Assembly (NCBI GenBank): GCA_015067675.1
Contig: SVMB01000008.1
Location: 1-64,000, forward strand
Direction of reading: 5' to 3'
Source: Oscillospiraceae bacterium
GTDB taxonomy: Bacteria; Bacillota; Clostridia; Oscillospirales; QAMX01
DNA: 64,000 bases
Shown here: positions 11,179 through 20,911 of the stretch, in pieces
Layout: every line of letters begins with the position of its first letter
Numbering within the stretch: the stretch's first letter is position 1
Notes under the pieces: generated by a model
The model's database searches: none
What the model was told of the DNA's origin: nothing
The model's input: only the letters and a program-made list of their open reading frames with translations
Position numbers and translations under genes: made by a program

Positions 11179-11217
11179 TTTTATCCGACAACCATCAACA
11201 CATAACCGCACTTCAAA

Positions 11218-11249
11218 GCCTGCCCGGCATCGTCCGGGCAGGCTTTTTT
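11218..11249 (+). terminator. Intrinsic terminator of NSS gene
   Basis: GCCTGCCCGG-catcgt-CCGGGCAGGC-TTTTTT. Confidence 0.9.
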
Positions 11250-11261
11250 CACGAGGTACTG

Positions 11262-11328
11262 CAATTCGTGCCTGTACAGCGACAATTCGTGCCCAAATCC
11301 CCCGTTCCGTGAAAATCCATGGTATACT
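11262..11328 (+). promoter_or_regulatory. Candidate activator-dependent promoter with 21-bp-phased direct repeats
   Basis: CAATTCGTGCC at 11262-11272 and 11283-11293; TATACT -10 at 11323-11328; no good -35. Confidence 0.6.
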
Positions 11329-11363
11329 TGTAGACACCACTTTTCAGGAGGGAACATAAAGCC

Positions 11364-11930
11364 ATGAAAGCCATCATTGCCATCGCAGGCGGCAGCGCCG
11401 GCGGCAAGACAACCTTTGCCAGAAAACTCCAGAGCCTTCTTGAGTCCTATCGCGTATGTATGCTCCACACGGACACCTATTTCAGACCCACATCTGAGCG
11501 TCCTTCCGTACAGTCTCATCTCAACGATAAAATCTATGTGGACGACAACTGCCCGGACGCCATCGATTTTGACCGATACCATGCCGACTTTGACGCGGCC
11601 TGCGCCTCAGACTGTGAGGTCATCATCACCGAAGGCCTGTGGGTTCTCTGGGATACCTACATCCGTGACCGGATCAATCTCAGAGTATATGTGGACTGCC
11701 GCAGTGACGAGCGCATCGTACGGCGGCTGCGCCGCAACATGGGCTGGGGACTGACCTTTGATCAGATTGCCGACTTCTATCTGGACATGGTGCGCTTTCG
11801 TCATGAGCAGTATATCGAACCCACCAAATGGACTGCCGACCTGATCATCAACGGCACCGGAAATACGGATATTGCCTGCCGGATGTGCGCAGATCAGATC
11901 GAAAAGCTCTGTGCCCGGGAGGATGTATGA
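11364..11930 (+). CDS. Uridine kinase-like P-loop nucleoside kinase
   Basis: MKAIIAIAGGSAGGKTTFARKL; DTYF; IITEGLWVLWD; DERIVRRLRRN. Confidence 0.8.
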   Translation: MKAIIAIAGGSAGGKTTFARKLQSLLESYRVCMLHTDTYFRPTSERPSVQSHLNDKIYVDDNCPDAIDFDRYHADFDAACASDCEVIITEGLWVLWDTYIRDRINLRVYVDCRSDERIVRRLRRNMGWGLTFDQIADFYLDMVRFRHEQYIEPTKWTADLIINGTGNTDIACRMCADQIEKLCAREDV

Positions 11931-13735
11931 GCCGTCATGCCTATCACTTTGCAGCCAATGTGAAGTTTATCTTTACCCATATTCTCCGCTTTTCGCCCCG
12001 GATACTTTTGCTGCACGCCTGGACCGTTCCGTCAGGCATTCTTGTTTCTGCCGGTTCCAGCTTCTTTGCCGGAGCGCTTGTTGAGACCATCCGAAACGGA
12101 GATCTCACCGCCATGGTCTGCGTCACCGCAGGCTTTATGCTGCTGCGGCTTGCGCTGAATGTCGGAGACCGCTATATTCAGAATCGGTTAAAGTCCCTCA
12201 ACCATCACTTCAAAGCCTATTTCATCGAGCAGTACGCCATGAAGTGCATGCATCTGGACTATGAGCTCTCCGAATCCCCCGAGATTCGTGACCGCGCTCA
12301 GCGAACGCACAACCAGCTTTTCAGCAGCGCCCGTAAAGTCAGCAGTACCCAGAGTATGAGCACGCCTTTGAGCGTGGACGCCTATCCTGCGCTGTTTGCA
12401 GCCATCCTCTCACGGCTTTTGGGCATCACGCTCTACACCGGCATCATCTCCATACTCAATCCCTGGCTTGCCCTGATTCTCCTCTTCATTTCCTGCGTCT
12501 CCTGGTTCACGCAAAAACGCCTTGCCGAGTCAAGCCACGCCTCGAAGAAAGACGCCATTCCCGTCGAGCGCAGGATCAATTACATCGGACGTGAGGCCCG
12601 CGACTTTGCAGCCGTCAAGGATATCCGCCTCTACGGGATCTCCCAGTGGTTTCATGATATCTTCGAAGAGCAGTTTTCCGTGTGGAAACGCATCATGAGC
12701 CGTCAGTCCCGGCTCAAAACCGGCTATACGGCATTGCTCGAAGGCATCAATGCACTGTTTCGGCTGGCGGTATATCTGTATCTGTTCGCATCCTTTTACC
12801 AGGGTATCATCTCCGTTTCGGAATTTGTGCTGTATCTTGGCATCATCACGGGCTTTGGCACCTGGGTACTGGAGCTGGTCGGCAGCATTGAACAGGTCAT
12901 TCAGGTTACGCTGGATGTGGACGACATACGCAGCTTTCTGGAACTTCCGGTCAACTCCGGCGGCAGCATTGAGCCTGACCCTGCTGACTGTTCCATTCGT
13001 TTCTCCGACGTCAGCTATGCCTATCCCGGAGACCGTGAGCATCCGGCCGTGGATCACATCTCCTTTGAGATACGCCACGGCGAAAAGATCGGCATTGTCG
13101 GCACCAACGGTTCCGGCAAAACCACGCTCATCAAGCTTCTCTGCGGACTCTATGCTCCGCAGTCGGGCACTATTACCATCGGCGGGACTCCCCTGCCGGA
13201 GCTTTCCCAAAGTGCACTGCGAAGCATGATTGCACCGGTCTTTCAGGATATTTACCTGCTGCCCACAAGCATCGCCCGCAACATTGCCCTCGACCGCGAA
13301 ATCGATCATGAAAAGCTCAGCGAGTGTATCCGGCAGGCAGGACTCTCCGAAAAGATTGCGTCTCTCCCCCGCGGCACCGAGACAACGCTGCTGAAGAGTG
13401 TTCTTGATGATGCCGTAGATCTTTCCGGCGGTGAAGTGCAGAAGCTGGCGCTTGCCCGCGCCCTGTATAAGGGCGGCTCGATTCTGATTCTCGATGAACC
13501 CACCGCCGCGCTTGATCCCGTGGCCGAAAACAGGATGTATCTGCGCTATCACGAGCTCACCCGAGCCAAAACTGCGGTTTTCATCTCTCATCGCCTGGCC
13601 TCAACCCGCTTCTGTGACCGCATTTTATGTATGGACAAGGGTAAAATCGTCGAATGCGGCACCCACGATGAACTGATGGCTCTCGGTGGACATTACGCGC
13701 AGATGTTTGCCATGCAGGCACAGTATTACAATTGA
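11927..13735 (+). CDS. ABC transporter, fused permease/ATP-binding (exporter type)
   Basis: Walker A GTNGSGKTT, signature LSGGEVQKLALARALYKG, Walker B ILILDEPTAALDP; ATGA overlap with kinase. Confidence 0.92.
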   Translation: MSRHAYHFAANVKFIFTHILRFSPRILLLHAWTVPSGILVSAGSSFFAGALVETIRNGDLTAMVCVTAGFMLLRLALNVGDRYIQNRLKSLNHHFKAYFIEQYAMKCMHLDYELSESPEIRDRAQRTHNQLFSSARKVSSTQSMSTPLSVDAYPALFAAILSRLLGITLYTGIISILNPWLALILLFISCVSWFTQKRLAESSHASKKDAIPVERRINYIGREARDFAAVKDIRLYGISQWFHDIFEEQFSVWKRIMSRQSRLKTGYTALLEGINALFRLAVYLYLFASFYQGIISVSEFVLYLGIITGFGTWVLELVGSIEQVIQVTLDVDDIRSFLELPVNSGGSIEPDPADCSIRFSDVSYAYPGDREHPAVDHISFEIRHGEKIGIVGTNGSGKTTLIKLLCGLYAPQSGTITIGGTPLPELSQSALRSMIAPVFQDIYLLPTSIARNIALDREIDHEKLSECIRQAGLSEKIASLPRGTETTLLKSVLDDAVDLSGGEVQKLALARALYKGGSILILDEPTAALDPVAENRMYLRYHELTRAKTAVFISHRLASTRFCDRILCMDKGKIVECGTHDELMALGGHYAQMFAMQAQYYN

Positions 13736-13745
13736 CGGAGCACTT

Positions 13746-15593
13746 ATGAAGCAGTTAACAGACGAATTCAGACTCATTCTTCGCGGTATTCGGTACATCC
13801 ACCGGCTCGCCCCCGGAAATCTTCTGGTGAAGCTCATCAAAAACACCCTGATGGCCGCACTCCCCTTTCTCGATCTGTACTTCTCCGCCCGCATCCTCGA
13901 CGTCCTGATCGCAAAAGAGAGCATCACAAAGGCGATCATACTGGCCCTTTTACTGGCGGTAAGCCATTTCGCCGTGCAGCTTGGCAGCGCCGTGATGGAC
14001 ATCAAAAACTATGAGATGTTCAACGGGCTTTATCGCCGGTACAATATGATGATCAGCGCCAAGGTCATGGGGTTGGACTACGAAAAGGTGGAAGATCCCG
14101 AGACTCACAAAGCCGTGCGCCACATCGACAATGCCATGAAGATCAGCAATTTCGGACTGATCAAAGTCCACAGCCGCATTCCACTGCTGTATCAGCATCT
14201 GCTGTCGCTGATTCTGGCGCTGGTGTTCATCATCGACGTTATTGCAAAGCCCTCCCCTGCCGGCAGTGTATATGCAGCCCTTGCCGATTCTCCCTGGGCT
14301 TTGCTCATCCTTCTCGCCGCCATCATCCTCGCTTCCTGCACCGGCGTTGTGGGTAATTCCCGCATCTCTGCCAATACCTATACGCTGCTGGGCGTCTTTT
14401 CAAAGCTCAACTGCGTCTACGACTACTATCTCAATCGCTATCTTGCCGGACAAAAGGCCGGCAAGGATATCCGGCTCTATGAGCAGTATCGGCTCATTTC
14501 CGACGAGCTTTCCCTCACCAACCGCAAGTCCCGCGACATCGTGGACGGCATCAACCGCACTGAATTTCGCTGGGGCGCCGGTAACGATCTGTCTGCATTT
14601 GTGCTCACGCTTCTGTCCTACCTGTACGCGGGACTCAAGGCGCTGGCGGGCGCTGTATCCATCGGCAGTGTCATGAAATTCAGCGGAGCCGTTGCCCAGT
14701 TAGGTCAGTCCGTCTGCGGGATCGTGGACGCCCTGTCACAGCTGCACGCAAACACCCCCTATCTGCGGGATTTTCTCGACTTCATGGAGCATGAAAGCAG
14801 GCTTTACCGCGGCACGCTGACCGTTGAAAAGCGAGATGACAACGAATACGACATTGAATTCCGCAACGTCTCGTTTCGCTACCCCGGGAGCGATACCTAC
14901 GCTTTGCGGCATGTGAATCTGACCTTCAAAGTGGGCGAAAAACTTGCCGTCGTCGGCATGAACGGCTCCGGCAAGACCACGTTCATCAAGCTTCTCTGCA
15001 GGCTCTACGACCCGACGGAAGGTGAGATTCTCCTCAACGGCGTGGATATCCGCAAATACGACTACAGCGAGTATCTTGCCCTCTTTTCCGTGGTTTTTCA
15101 GGATTTCCGGCTGTTTTCCTTCTCCCTCGGTCAGAATATCGCCGCCAGCCGCAGCTATGACGACGCCCGTGTGGTGCAGTGTCTTGAAAAAGCAGGCCTC
15201 GGTCAGCGTTTTGCGCATATGCAAAGCGGCACCGATACCTGCCTGTACCGGGACTTCGACCCGGAAGGTGTGGAAATCTCCGGCGGGGAAGCACAGAAGA
15301 TCGCGCTTGCCCGGGCACTTTATAAAGATGCGCCGTTCATCATCCTTGACGAGCCCACGGCTGCGCTGGATCCCGTGGCGGAATATGAGATCTACGAGCG
15401 GTTCAACCGCATCGTCGGCGATAAAACCACCATCTATATCAGCCATCGCCTTGCCTCCTGCCGCTTCTGCGACCGCATCGCGGTATTTGATGGCGGGCAC
15501 ATCGTCCAGCACGGCAGTCATGAAGCACTGCTTGCCAAAACCGCCGGCCGCTATTACGAACTCTGGCAGGCCCAGGCACAATATTACGTTTGA
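13746..15593 (+). CDS. ABC transporter, fused permease/ATP-binding (exporter type), paralog of preceding gene
   Basis: Walker A GMNGSGKTT, signature ISGGEAQKIALARALYKD, Walker B FIILDEPTAALDP. Confidence 0.92.
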   Translation: MKQLTDEFRLILRGIRYIHRLAPGNLLVKLIKNTLMAALPFLDLYFSARILDVLIAKESITKAIILALLLAVSHFAVQLGSAVMDIKNYEMFNGLYRRYNMMISAKVMGLDYEKVEDPETHKAVRHIDNAMKISNFGLIKVHSRIPLLYQHLLSLILALVFIIDVIAKPSPAGSVYAALADSPWALLILLAAIILASCTGVVGNSRISANTYTLLGVFSKLNCVYDYYLNRYLAGQKAGKDIRLYEQYRLISDELSLTNRKSRDIVDGINRTEFRWGAGNDLSAFVLTLLSYLYAGLKALAGAVSIGSVMKFSGAVAQLGQSVCGIVDALSQLHANTPYLRDFLDFMEHESRLYRGTLTVEKRDDNEYDIEFRNVSFRYPGSDTYALRHVNLTFKVGEKLAVVGMNGSGKTTFIKLLCRLYDPTEGEILLNGVDIRKYDYSEYLALFSVVFQDFRLFSFSLGQNIAASRSYDDARVVQCLEKAGLGQRFAHMQSGTDTCLYRDFDPEGVEISGGEAQKIALARALYKDAPFIILDEPTAALDPVAEYEIYERFNRIVGDKTTIYISHRLASCRFCDRIAVFDGGHIVQHGSHEALLAKTAGRYYELWQAQAQYYV

Positions 15594-18769: not shown

Positions 18770-20911
18770 TTATGCTGCCAGCTCGTAGGAAAACTGGTTT
18801 TCCTCGCAGTATTCATGCATGACGCTGCCTTCCACGACGGTGAACACGGCCTTCGTGCCCAGATCACCGAAGAGCGCGCCTTCGATCGTCTCAAGGCTGG
18901 CAGGCATCGTCAGGCTCTCCAGCGCATCGCAGCCCACGAAGATTGACGCGCCGATGGACTTCACACCCTCGTGTACCGTCAGTTTCCGGAGGGAAGCGCA
19001 ATTGTAGAAGCAGCCCTCGCCCAGAACCGTCAGCGTATCCGGCAGAGTCACGTCCACGAGCGCCTGGCATTCGTAGAACAGGCTTTCCTGCAGCTCGGTT
19101 ACGCCTGCGGGAATCGTGATTTCCTCCAGCGCCGTGCAGAACGCAAAGGTCATGTCGCCAAGCTTTGCAACACTCTCCGGCAGCGTCACCTTCGTGAGGG
19201 AGCTGCATTCGTAGAAAACGCCCTTGCCCAGCTCGGTCACACCTTCCGGCACTTCAAAGGAAGTCAGAGCATTGCAGGCGGTAAAGAAGCCCTCGGGAAT
19301 TGCCGTAATGCCCGTGGGAAGGGTGATGCTTTCCAGTTTTGTGCAGTTGGCGACGCCATAGGCACCAATCTCCGTGATCCCCGCAGGCAGGACGATCTCG
19401 GTCAGGCTTTCGCACTCACGAAAAACGCTGGCGCCCATTTTGGTCACGGTTTCGGGGATTTCAATCGTCTGCAGCACTTTACAGCCCTGGAAAAGACCCT
19501 CAGAAAGCTCGCTCATCGTATCCGGAAGGGTAAGTGACTGCATGGAGGCACAGCCAGCGAAGGTGTAGGGACCAAGCTCGGTGATACCGGCAGGCAGCTC
19601 CACGGTTTTGAGCACGCTGCAGTTTGCAAAGGCATATTCGCCGAGATTTTTCAGGTTTGCAGGCAGCTTTACCTCGCGCAGAGAGGCACAGTCGGCCAGC
19701 ACATGACTGCCCATGGAGGTGATGTTGTCATGGAGTTTGAGTTCAGTGAGGTTTTTACAGCCGTAGAACGCACCGCCGCCCAGCTCCGTCACAGTCTCGG
19801 GCACGATATAGGAATTAAAGCCCAGGCAGCCGTAGAAGAGATTGTCGGGGATACGGGTAATCGCCGCAGGCAGGGTTACGCCGGAAAGGCTCTCGCAGGA
19901 GGCAAATGCTGCGGCGCCCAGTTCCGTCACGCCCTCCGGAAGCTTCATCGCCCGCAGGCTGACGCAATTTTCAAAGGCACCGTCACCGATGGCAGTCACG
20001 GTTTCGGGAAGCTCAATGCTCACAAGGCCCGTGCAGCCGGAAAACATATAAGCCGGCACGGCGGTCATGCCCTTGGGCAGGGTCACTTCGGTCAGTCCCG
20101 CGCAGTCCTGCAGCAAACCGTCGCCGATGCTCACAAGGCTTGCAGGCAGCTCCACCTTGGTCAGTGCGCGGCAGTTGCCAAAGGCCGCTTCACCAACGTG
20201 GGTCAGCTTTGAGGGCAGCAGCAGCGTGGTCATCGCCGTGCAGGTATAAAATGCGCCATCACCGATCTCGGTGAGACTGCCCGGCAGCGACACACTGATG
20301 AGAGAAGTACAGGAACTGAACGCGTCGGCGGAGATACCGGTCAGGTTGCGTGGAAGATTGACCACCGTCACGTCGGTGTTGCCCTGGAAGGCAGTGCTGA
20401 GATACTTGACGCTGGCCGGAACATTGACCGTGCCGCCGGCGCCGTTATACTTGATAAGCACCTGATCGCCCGCGACCACAAACTCGCCATCCTGAAAGTC
20501 AAACCAGGGAGTATAGGCAAAGGCGTGGGAACCGATCCTGGTCACCGTAGCCGGGATGATAACCTCACACAGGGCATCGCAGCCGTCAAAGGCTCGATCC
20601 CCGATAAACGTAACCCCATTGGGGATGGTCACAGACTCGATGGTCGTGTTGACATAGAAGGCCTCGGCACCGATACCGGTAACGGGCTTGCCGTCAAGGG
20701 TTTCGGGGATGACGACTCTGGCTTCTTTTCCCAGATAGGAGGTGATCACTGCGTGATCCTCATACACCTCATAGCCGTACTCTTCGCTCACGGCAGTGCT
20801 CAGCGGCTTTTGTTCTACCACGGGCGCAGGTGCGCTGCCGCAGCCCGCCAGCAGCACCGCAATGAGGCACATGGCAAGGCTGAGCGCTGCGATAGATTTC
20901 AGATTCTTCAT
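18770..20911 (-). CDS. Leucine-rich repeat (BspA/LRR_5 type) lipoprotein
   Basis: Lipobox LLAGCGS; about two dozen 23-aa LRR_5 units such as LPETVTAIGDGAFENCVSLRAMK. Confidence 0.93.
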   Translation of the reverse strand: MKNLKSIAALSLAMCLIAVLLAGCGSAPAPVVEQKPLSTAVSEEYGYEVYEDHAVITSYLGKEARVVIPETLDGKPVTGIGAEAFYVNTTIESVTIPNGVTFIGDRAFDGCDALCEVIIPATVTRIGSHAFAYTPWFDFQDGEFVVAGDQVLIKYNGAGGTVNVPASVKYLSTAFQGNTDVTVVNLPRNLTGISADAFSSCTSLISVSLPGSLTEIGDGAFYTCTAMTTLLLPSKLTHVGEAAFGNCRALTKVELPASLVSIGDGLLQDCAGLTEVTLPKGMTAVPAYMFSGCTGLVSIELPETVTAIGDGAFENCVSLRAMKLPEGVTELGAAAFASCESLSGVTLPAAITRIPDNLFYGCLGFNSYIVPETVTELGGGAFYGCKNLTELKLHDNITSMGSHVLADCASLREVKLPANLKNLGEYAFANCSVLKTVELPAGITELGPYTFAGCASMQSLTLPDTMSELSEGLFQGCKVLQTIEIPETVTKMGASVFRECESLTEIVLPAGITEIGAYGVANCTKLESITLPTGITAIPEGFFTACNALTSFEVPEGVTELGKGVFYECSSLTKVTLPESVAKLGDMTFAFCTALEEITIPAGVTELQESLFYECQALVDVTLPDTLTVLGEGCFYNCASLRKLTVHEGVKSIGASIFVGCDALESLTMPASLETIEGALFGDLGTKAVFTVVEGSVMHEYCEENQFSYELAA

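Follow-up and report, generated by a model that had tools for sequence, protein, structure and literature searches.

A putative LytTR-family operator ahead of a kinase-ABC-ABC satellite operon in an Oscillospiraceae genome, and residue-base covariation among related regulator modules

Two identical copies of an 11-nt word, CAATTCGTGCC, lie one after the other upstream of a kinase-ABC-ABC operon in the window, the 64-kb stretch of Oscillospiraceae DNA analysed here. We conclude that these repeats are very probably an operator of the LytTR family, read by a regulator encoded elsewhere in the genome. The same promoter architecture accompanies modules in which a LytTR response regulator, a GHKL kinase and two ABC genes are encoded together, and the window operon is a satellite of such modules: it has a module promoter and a module-type ABC pair without a regulator of its own, so that its control would be exerted in trans. 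This reading is drawn from sequence comparison, which establishes the operator pair, its spacing, its distance to the promoter, its recurrence, its linkage to LytTR genes and a covariation between one residue of the regulator and one base of the operator.

LytTR regulators are common, but little is understood of how they select their DNA sites, and the consensus in the literature is loose. In the present set, dozens of regulators can each be matched to their own operator through their place in the genome; the covarying residue coincides with a position known to contact DNA, and sequence allows the operator of a regulator-less operon to be assigned to one of the six LytTR proteins of its genome. 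Specificity, insulation and the recruitment of new targets thereby become directly testable, and a route is opened to reading the regulons of uncultured bacteria from draft genomes. The window site is a new LytTR operator of a known kind; for the regulator-kinase-ABC-ABC family, with its satellites and its candidate specificity residue, no description was found in searches of the open-licence literature.

The window promoter and its operon

Inspection of the sequence places the two copies of the word at 11262-11272 and 11283-11293, identical over all 11 nt and 21 bp apart from start to start, exactly as originally predicted; a third exact copy is absent from the 64-kb window. The window contains two exact repeats of 11 nt or longer at an offset of 21, this pair being one of them, against about 0.017 expected from the Markov-shuffled window, so that the bare repeat is unusual and yet by itself not decisive. 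In agreement with module promoters in other genomes, we delimit an upstream LytTR half-site, gCAATTCGTGCC (11261..11272, plus strand), and, 21 bp further on, a downstream half-site, aCAATTCGTGCC (11282..11293, plus strand).

A -10 hexamer, TATACT, occupies 11323-11328, 29 bp past the second copy of the word and 40 bp from the first base of that copy (11283). The original prediction had described this -10 as lacking a recognisable -35, and our search for a sigma-70 -35/-10 pair at the window promoter likewise found none. What it had overlooked is a TG at 11320-11321, which turns the hexamer into an extended -10, TGGTATACT (11320..11328, plus strand). In 58 of the 73 module promoters described below the extended -10 begins 39-41 bp downstream of the first base of the second half-site, and in the window the distance is exactly 40 bp. 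The repeat pair is centred about 58 bp upstream of the predicted transcription start, near 11335, and a likely ribosome-binding site of the first gene, AGGAGGG, follows at 11346..11352 (plus strand). On the other side of the repeats, the sodium-dependent transporter gene upstream is followed by a terminator-like hairpin and T-run (11215..11250, plus strand), identified as an inverted repeat and by folding: a 13-bp perfect inverted repeat with a 6-nt loop (11215-11246; -25.7 kcal/mol) and then TTTTTT. Since this strong terminator-like hairpin ends at about 11250, between the transporter gene and the repeats, the repeats appear to open a new transcription unit.

The first gene of the operon (11364..11930, plus strand) encodes a 188-aa P-loop kinase of the uridine kinase/phosphoribulokinase family, with 73 bits to PF00485 and 119.9 bits to the NCBIfam uridine kinase model, the latter under the equivalog cut-off of 180. 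The original prediction rightly spoke of a kinase, although the family is that of uridine-kinase-like small-molecule kinases and not of histidine or sensor kinases. Two ABC exporter half-transporters follow, both matching PF00005. The first (602 aa; 11927..13735, plus strand) has a start that overlaps the kinase stop by 4 nt and belongs to the family of the first ABC protein of the regulator-linked modules; the second (615 aa; 13746..15593, plus strand) is 44% identical to the second ABC protein of the modules at loci L258 and L128. These same two modules hold the nearest relatives of the window ABC proteins, at only 34-44% identity. From the exporter family one might guess at a self-protective or export role for the operon. 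Elsewhere in the window (18770-20911, minus strand), we read by eye a large protein of repeated leucine-rich BspA-like units with a lipoprotein-like start.

In the mechanism that we propose, the operon has kept or acquired the promoter of a module of the type LytTR response regulator/GHKL kinase/ABC/ABC. A phosphorylated REC-LytTR dimer would bind both half-sites from the same face of the helix and, acting as an activator, would recruit RNA polymerase to the -35-less, extended -10 promoter; the recruited polymerase would then transcribe the kinase-ABC-ABC operon.

Matching promoters in the same genome and across the order

The window genome is a draft assembly of 3.67 Mb (169 contigs, 73% completeness). 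Six LytTR proteins are encoded in it, all of them on contigs other than the window's, in line with the original observation that the window holds no LytTR gene and with its expectation that the genome should encode a LytTR protein. Across this genome, the pattern MRRTTCGTSC-N11-MRRTTCGTSC has three zero-mismatch matches, in the window (contig C6) and on contigs C29 and C127. Extending the pattern to half-site-N11-half-site-N27-TGNTANNNT and allowing up to three mismatches returned the same three places only, all with 0 mismatches, and none for the reversed control. Half-sites searched with three mismatches allowed were rejected as swamped by background (44 matches against 68 in the control); the informative half-site searches are those restricted to zero mismatches or with the -10 added to the pattern.

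Each of the three sites stands before an ABC-exporter operon. The C29 site lies between a REC-LytTR and GHKL kinase pair and an ABC-ABC pair, and the C127 site lies downstream of a REC-LytTR/GHKL pair in one locus, immediately before the ABC gene; both loci thus link a LytTR protein to the same operator elsewhere in the genome. The two kinases (216 aa for C127, 227 aa for C29) match GHKL and SpoOB-type helices only, with no sensor domain recognised. At the C127 locus, what separates the kinase from the operator is a metallo-beta-lactamase-fold protein followed up by no usual module component, namely a solute-binding-like protein of 735 aa (L035 6969-10178). the contig compositions agree with that of the window, which makes a contaminant origin unlikely.

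At the level of the order, 178 of 394 genomes have a GHKL kinase homologous to that of C127 when judged by the threshold used. The modules studied here are those with the close, short GHKL kinase types without a recognised sensor domain: 96 kinase loci were examined, of which 73 gave a clear box. Nearly all of the 96 have a REC-LytTR gene directly upstream of the kinase gene, and most of those where the contig permits have an ABC gene downstream. In a motif-free search behind the kinase gene, 40 loci had their best direct repeat at offset 21, where shuffled sequences gave 6. The box lies behind the kinase gene in 66 of 73 modules and upstream of the regulator gene in 0 of 73, so that these circuits are not autoregulated through the box. 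We also built a promoter weight model covering both half-sites and the -10, trained on 47 promoters that all came from other genomes; it scores the window site at 43.5 bits, where the training promoters have a median of 40.8, and no other position in the 64 kb exceeds 11.6 bits.

Upstream of homologous ABC-ABC operons beside REC-LytTR/GHKL pairs, the repeat is kept together with its spacing and its distance to the promoter. The original prediction had named a lack of conservation upstream of orthologous operons as grounds for refuting it; the recurrence upstream of these homologous operons supports its LytTR-operator reading. The narrow pattern ATTCGTGN13-15ATTCGTG, built on the ATTCGTG pairs for which it had suggested a search, rose barely above control at the order level and was abandoned as over-strict at base 9 and over-loose elsewhere. 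The box pattern has 18 matches in the 394 genomes against 1 control match, and 12 of the 15 matches outside the window genome stand directly before ABC genes; with the -10 added and 2 mismatches allowed, there are 40 matches against 5 in the control. At 15 loci with homologues of the window kinase (39-52% identity) we found neither such a repeat nor an adjoining ABC pair; the conserved part is thus the ABC pair with its promoter and not the kinase, and within the sample examined the extra kinase occurs in the window operon only.

A contig scan with the GTGCC version of the half-site returned 12 loci, several of them in unrelated bacteria (Odoribacteraceae, Bacillus, Proteobacteria, Planctomycetaceae). 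Among these loci, L127 is probably relevant, L120 and L122 may be, and L128 is decisive: the last, in a draft genome labelled Lachnospiraceae, is a regulator-kinase-ABC-ABC module both of whose half-sites are identical to those of the window. In a draft genome of the Odoribacteraceae, the 11-nt word recurs in tandem every 21 bp (L117 5211-5305), probably as an unrelated tandem repeat.

Boxes ahead of ABC genes away from a regulator are found in further genomes. In genome G058, a solo ABC pair (C84; L254 2506) and a module (C115; L258 4919) have nearly the same promoter: the half-sites, the bases separating them and those that follow are identical, and about 50 bp agree almost letter for letter, as in a recent copy of the whole regulatory promoter. 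Genome G339 has a regulator-kinase pair without an ABC neighbour on one contig (C83) and a perfect box ahead of an ABC gene on another (C30), and in genome G012 a solo ABC pair lies about 10 kb from a module on one contig. One site (L255 1417; G266 C83) combines a box and a perfect extended -10 of the CATTTCGTCCCC type with no ABC gene among its nearest genes, and may represent another type of target of these regulators.

A structural variant was seen in modules whose operators are of the CAATTCGTCCCC type (L206, L171, L175 and others). In 31 of 37 of them the promoter-proximal half-site doubles as the 5' arm of a hairpin that resembles a terminator (median -17.8 kcal/mol, z -4.5), often with a T-run just before the -10. 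It looks as though the operator of these modules, behind the genes for regulator and kinase, forms part of a terminator-like element; no half-site hairpin of this type is present in the window promoter.

Residue 157, base 9 and the choice of regulator

When the 73 regulator-operator pairs are compared, regulator residue 157 (numbered as in C127) covaries with base 9 of the first half-site, the last letter of CAATTCGTG, without exception: Asn goes with C (37/37), His with G (32/32), Gln with T or A (3) and Met with A (1). The second half-site shows one departure from this rule. The box finder treated G and C alike at base 9, favouring both over A and T. Base 9 changes about five times on the tree of the 73 regulator sequences, with one further Asn/C origin (L165) that is not forced by well-supported branches, and the covariation is in part shared ancestry.

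Residue 157 aligns to His169 of AgrA in an alignment of the LytTR profile to the AgrA structure, the numbering of which we took from residues L171 and H174 of that structure (PMC4227749). His169 has been reported to contact the ninth base, a G, of the AgrA half-site ACAGTTAAG (PMC11039898; also PMC12482169). The LytTR profile was needed to place position 157 on AgrA because a phmmer search of solved structures with the C127 regulator as query found receiver domains and ComE and not AgrA. When the sites are aligned on their CAGTT core, the covarying base falls one position further out than G9 of AgrA, and the contact is therefore analogous, not proven identical.

Within the window genome, this residue is His in the C127 and C82 regulators, Asn in C29 and Gln in C150. 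At base 9 both half-sites of the window promoter carry G, and the remainder of the site agrees with the C127 operator (CAATTCGTGCCC/CAGTTCGTGCCC, with GTGCC half-sites) and not with that of C82. Given this G, the match to the C127 operator and the His157 of its regulator, C127 is the best candidate, and the regulator of the window site is probably the C127 protein. The operon would then answer in trans to the C127 kinase-regulator pair, and the regulator would act from elsewhere, as had been supposed, with contig C127 as its most likely place.

There is a smaller but real chance that the LytTR operator is read instead by C82, by C29, by a regulator missing from the draft, or by several of these, in which case more than one signal would be integrated. 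C82 also carries His157, but its operator (CCATTCGCGCC/CCACTCGCGCC) is several bases off the window's. The C29 operator is closer: each half-site has one or two differences from the window's, at base 9 and a single other position, so that cross-talk is possible; against this, Asn157 goes with C in 37/37 first half-sites and the window has G. As the draft is 73% complete, a better cognate regulator may be absent from the assembly.

We consider the odds even that the order contains a family of mutually insulated LytTR circuits, of which the window genome would have four. In these, His, Asn or Gln would set G, C or T-or-A, cross-talk between paralogues would be prevented, and extra transporter operons would join one circuit by carrying its operator. 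If true, the insulated circuits and the residue-base pairing would amount to a specificity code for LytTR regulators.

LytTR regulators of the agr, Com and Blp type control peptide export, which speaks for a site that represses, or that works through an agr/ComE-like peptide quorum system. We regard both as improbable. A location upstream of a -35-less promoter suits activation, and the link to peptide export and quorum sensing made in the original prediction found no support: the C127 kinase has no recognised sensor domain, it and the C29 kinase match GHKL and SpoOB-like helices only, and AgrB was not found in the 73%-complete genome, in a search that returned no hit above cut-off in any of 14 control genomes either.

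It is distinctly improbable that the promoter is a relic, duplicated together with the ABC pair and no longer responsive to any regulator. Such a history would fit the recent promoter copy at a second ABC pair in G058 and the fact that no strictly orthologous operon is known. In the window, however, the half-sites and the extended -10 are perfect though the bases between them differ from those of other promoters, and perfect elements ahead of ABC proteins so far diverged from their nearest relatives indicate that the site has outlived long divergence. Chance, or recognition by an unrelated family of regulators, is scarcely credible: an 11-bp repeat alone is within chance for a by-eye scan of 64 kb, and a single kinase-ABC-ABC operon of such a kind is known, but half-site sequence, spacing and -10 distance are all as in LytTR-adjacent promoters and the independent promoter model disfavours it strongly.

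Comparison with known LytTR and related systems

The consensus of the LytTR family is [TA][AC][CA]GTTN[AG][TG]. The second half-site of the window, ACAATTCGT, fits it at 8/9 positions and the first, GCAATTCGT, at 7/9, while the second half-site of C127, ACAGTTCGT, and sister-module sites such as ACCGTTCGT fit at 9/9.

AgrA of Staphylococcus aureus binds through a LytTR domain to repeats centred roughly at -60 from the transcription start, ahead of suboptimal -35 and -10 elements (PMC4227749). Its operator, ACAGTTAAG-N12-ACAGTTAAG, resembles that of the window in being a pair of short direct repeats spaced by about 21 bp, and the distance of about 58 bp between the centre of the window pair and the predicted start is comparable to the -60 of AgrA (PMC4227749). 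Unlike in agr, the C127 and C29 kinases show no match to a membrane sensor domain; unlike those of AgrA, the targets of the window site and the modules are ABC exporter pairs, and the half-sites reach further downstream (GTGCC).

The VirR boxes of Clostridium perfringens form a pair of direct repeats placed immediately upstream of the -35, with critical spacing and helical phase and with scattered targets in trans (PMC2838878). The modules and satellites described here share with them the direct-repeat pair upstream of a promoter and, in the mechanism proposed, the dependence on helical phase and the control of several scattered targets in trans. They differ in that VirS has been described as a membrane-anchored sensor and that the VirR targets are toxin genes and not ABC pairs; the half-sites are only loosely similar.

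A matching layout is that of the LytTR Regulatory Systems (HdrRM, BrsRM), in which 9-bp repeats with 12 bp between them usually lie 10 bp upstream of the -35; some of these systems have an extended -10 and some are linked to ABC genes (PMC6193735). The window site, with 9-bp repeats, a 12-bp gap and about 10 bp before the -35 position, has the same layout (PMC6193735). HdrRM and BrsRM, however, combine a membrane inhibitor with autoregulation, whereas the modules here consist of a receiver-domain regulator followed by a GHKL kinase, with no box before the regulator in any of the 73.

In Bce-type modules, a two-component system sits beside an ABC transporter under its control, and the sensor kinase has no sensing domain of its own. 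The regulator here is of the LytTR and not the OmpR type, and the ABC genes encode a pair of exporter half-transporters and not BceAB; the likeness would be one of layout only, a two-component pair adjoining the ABC transporter that it appears to control.
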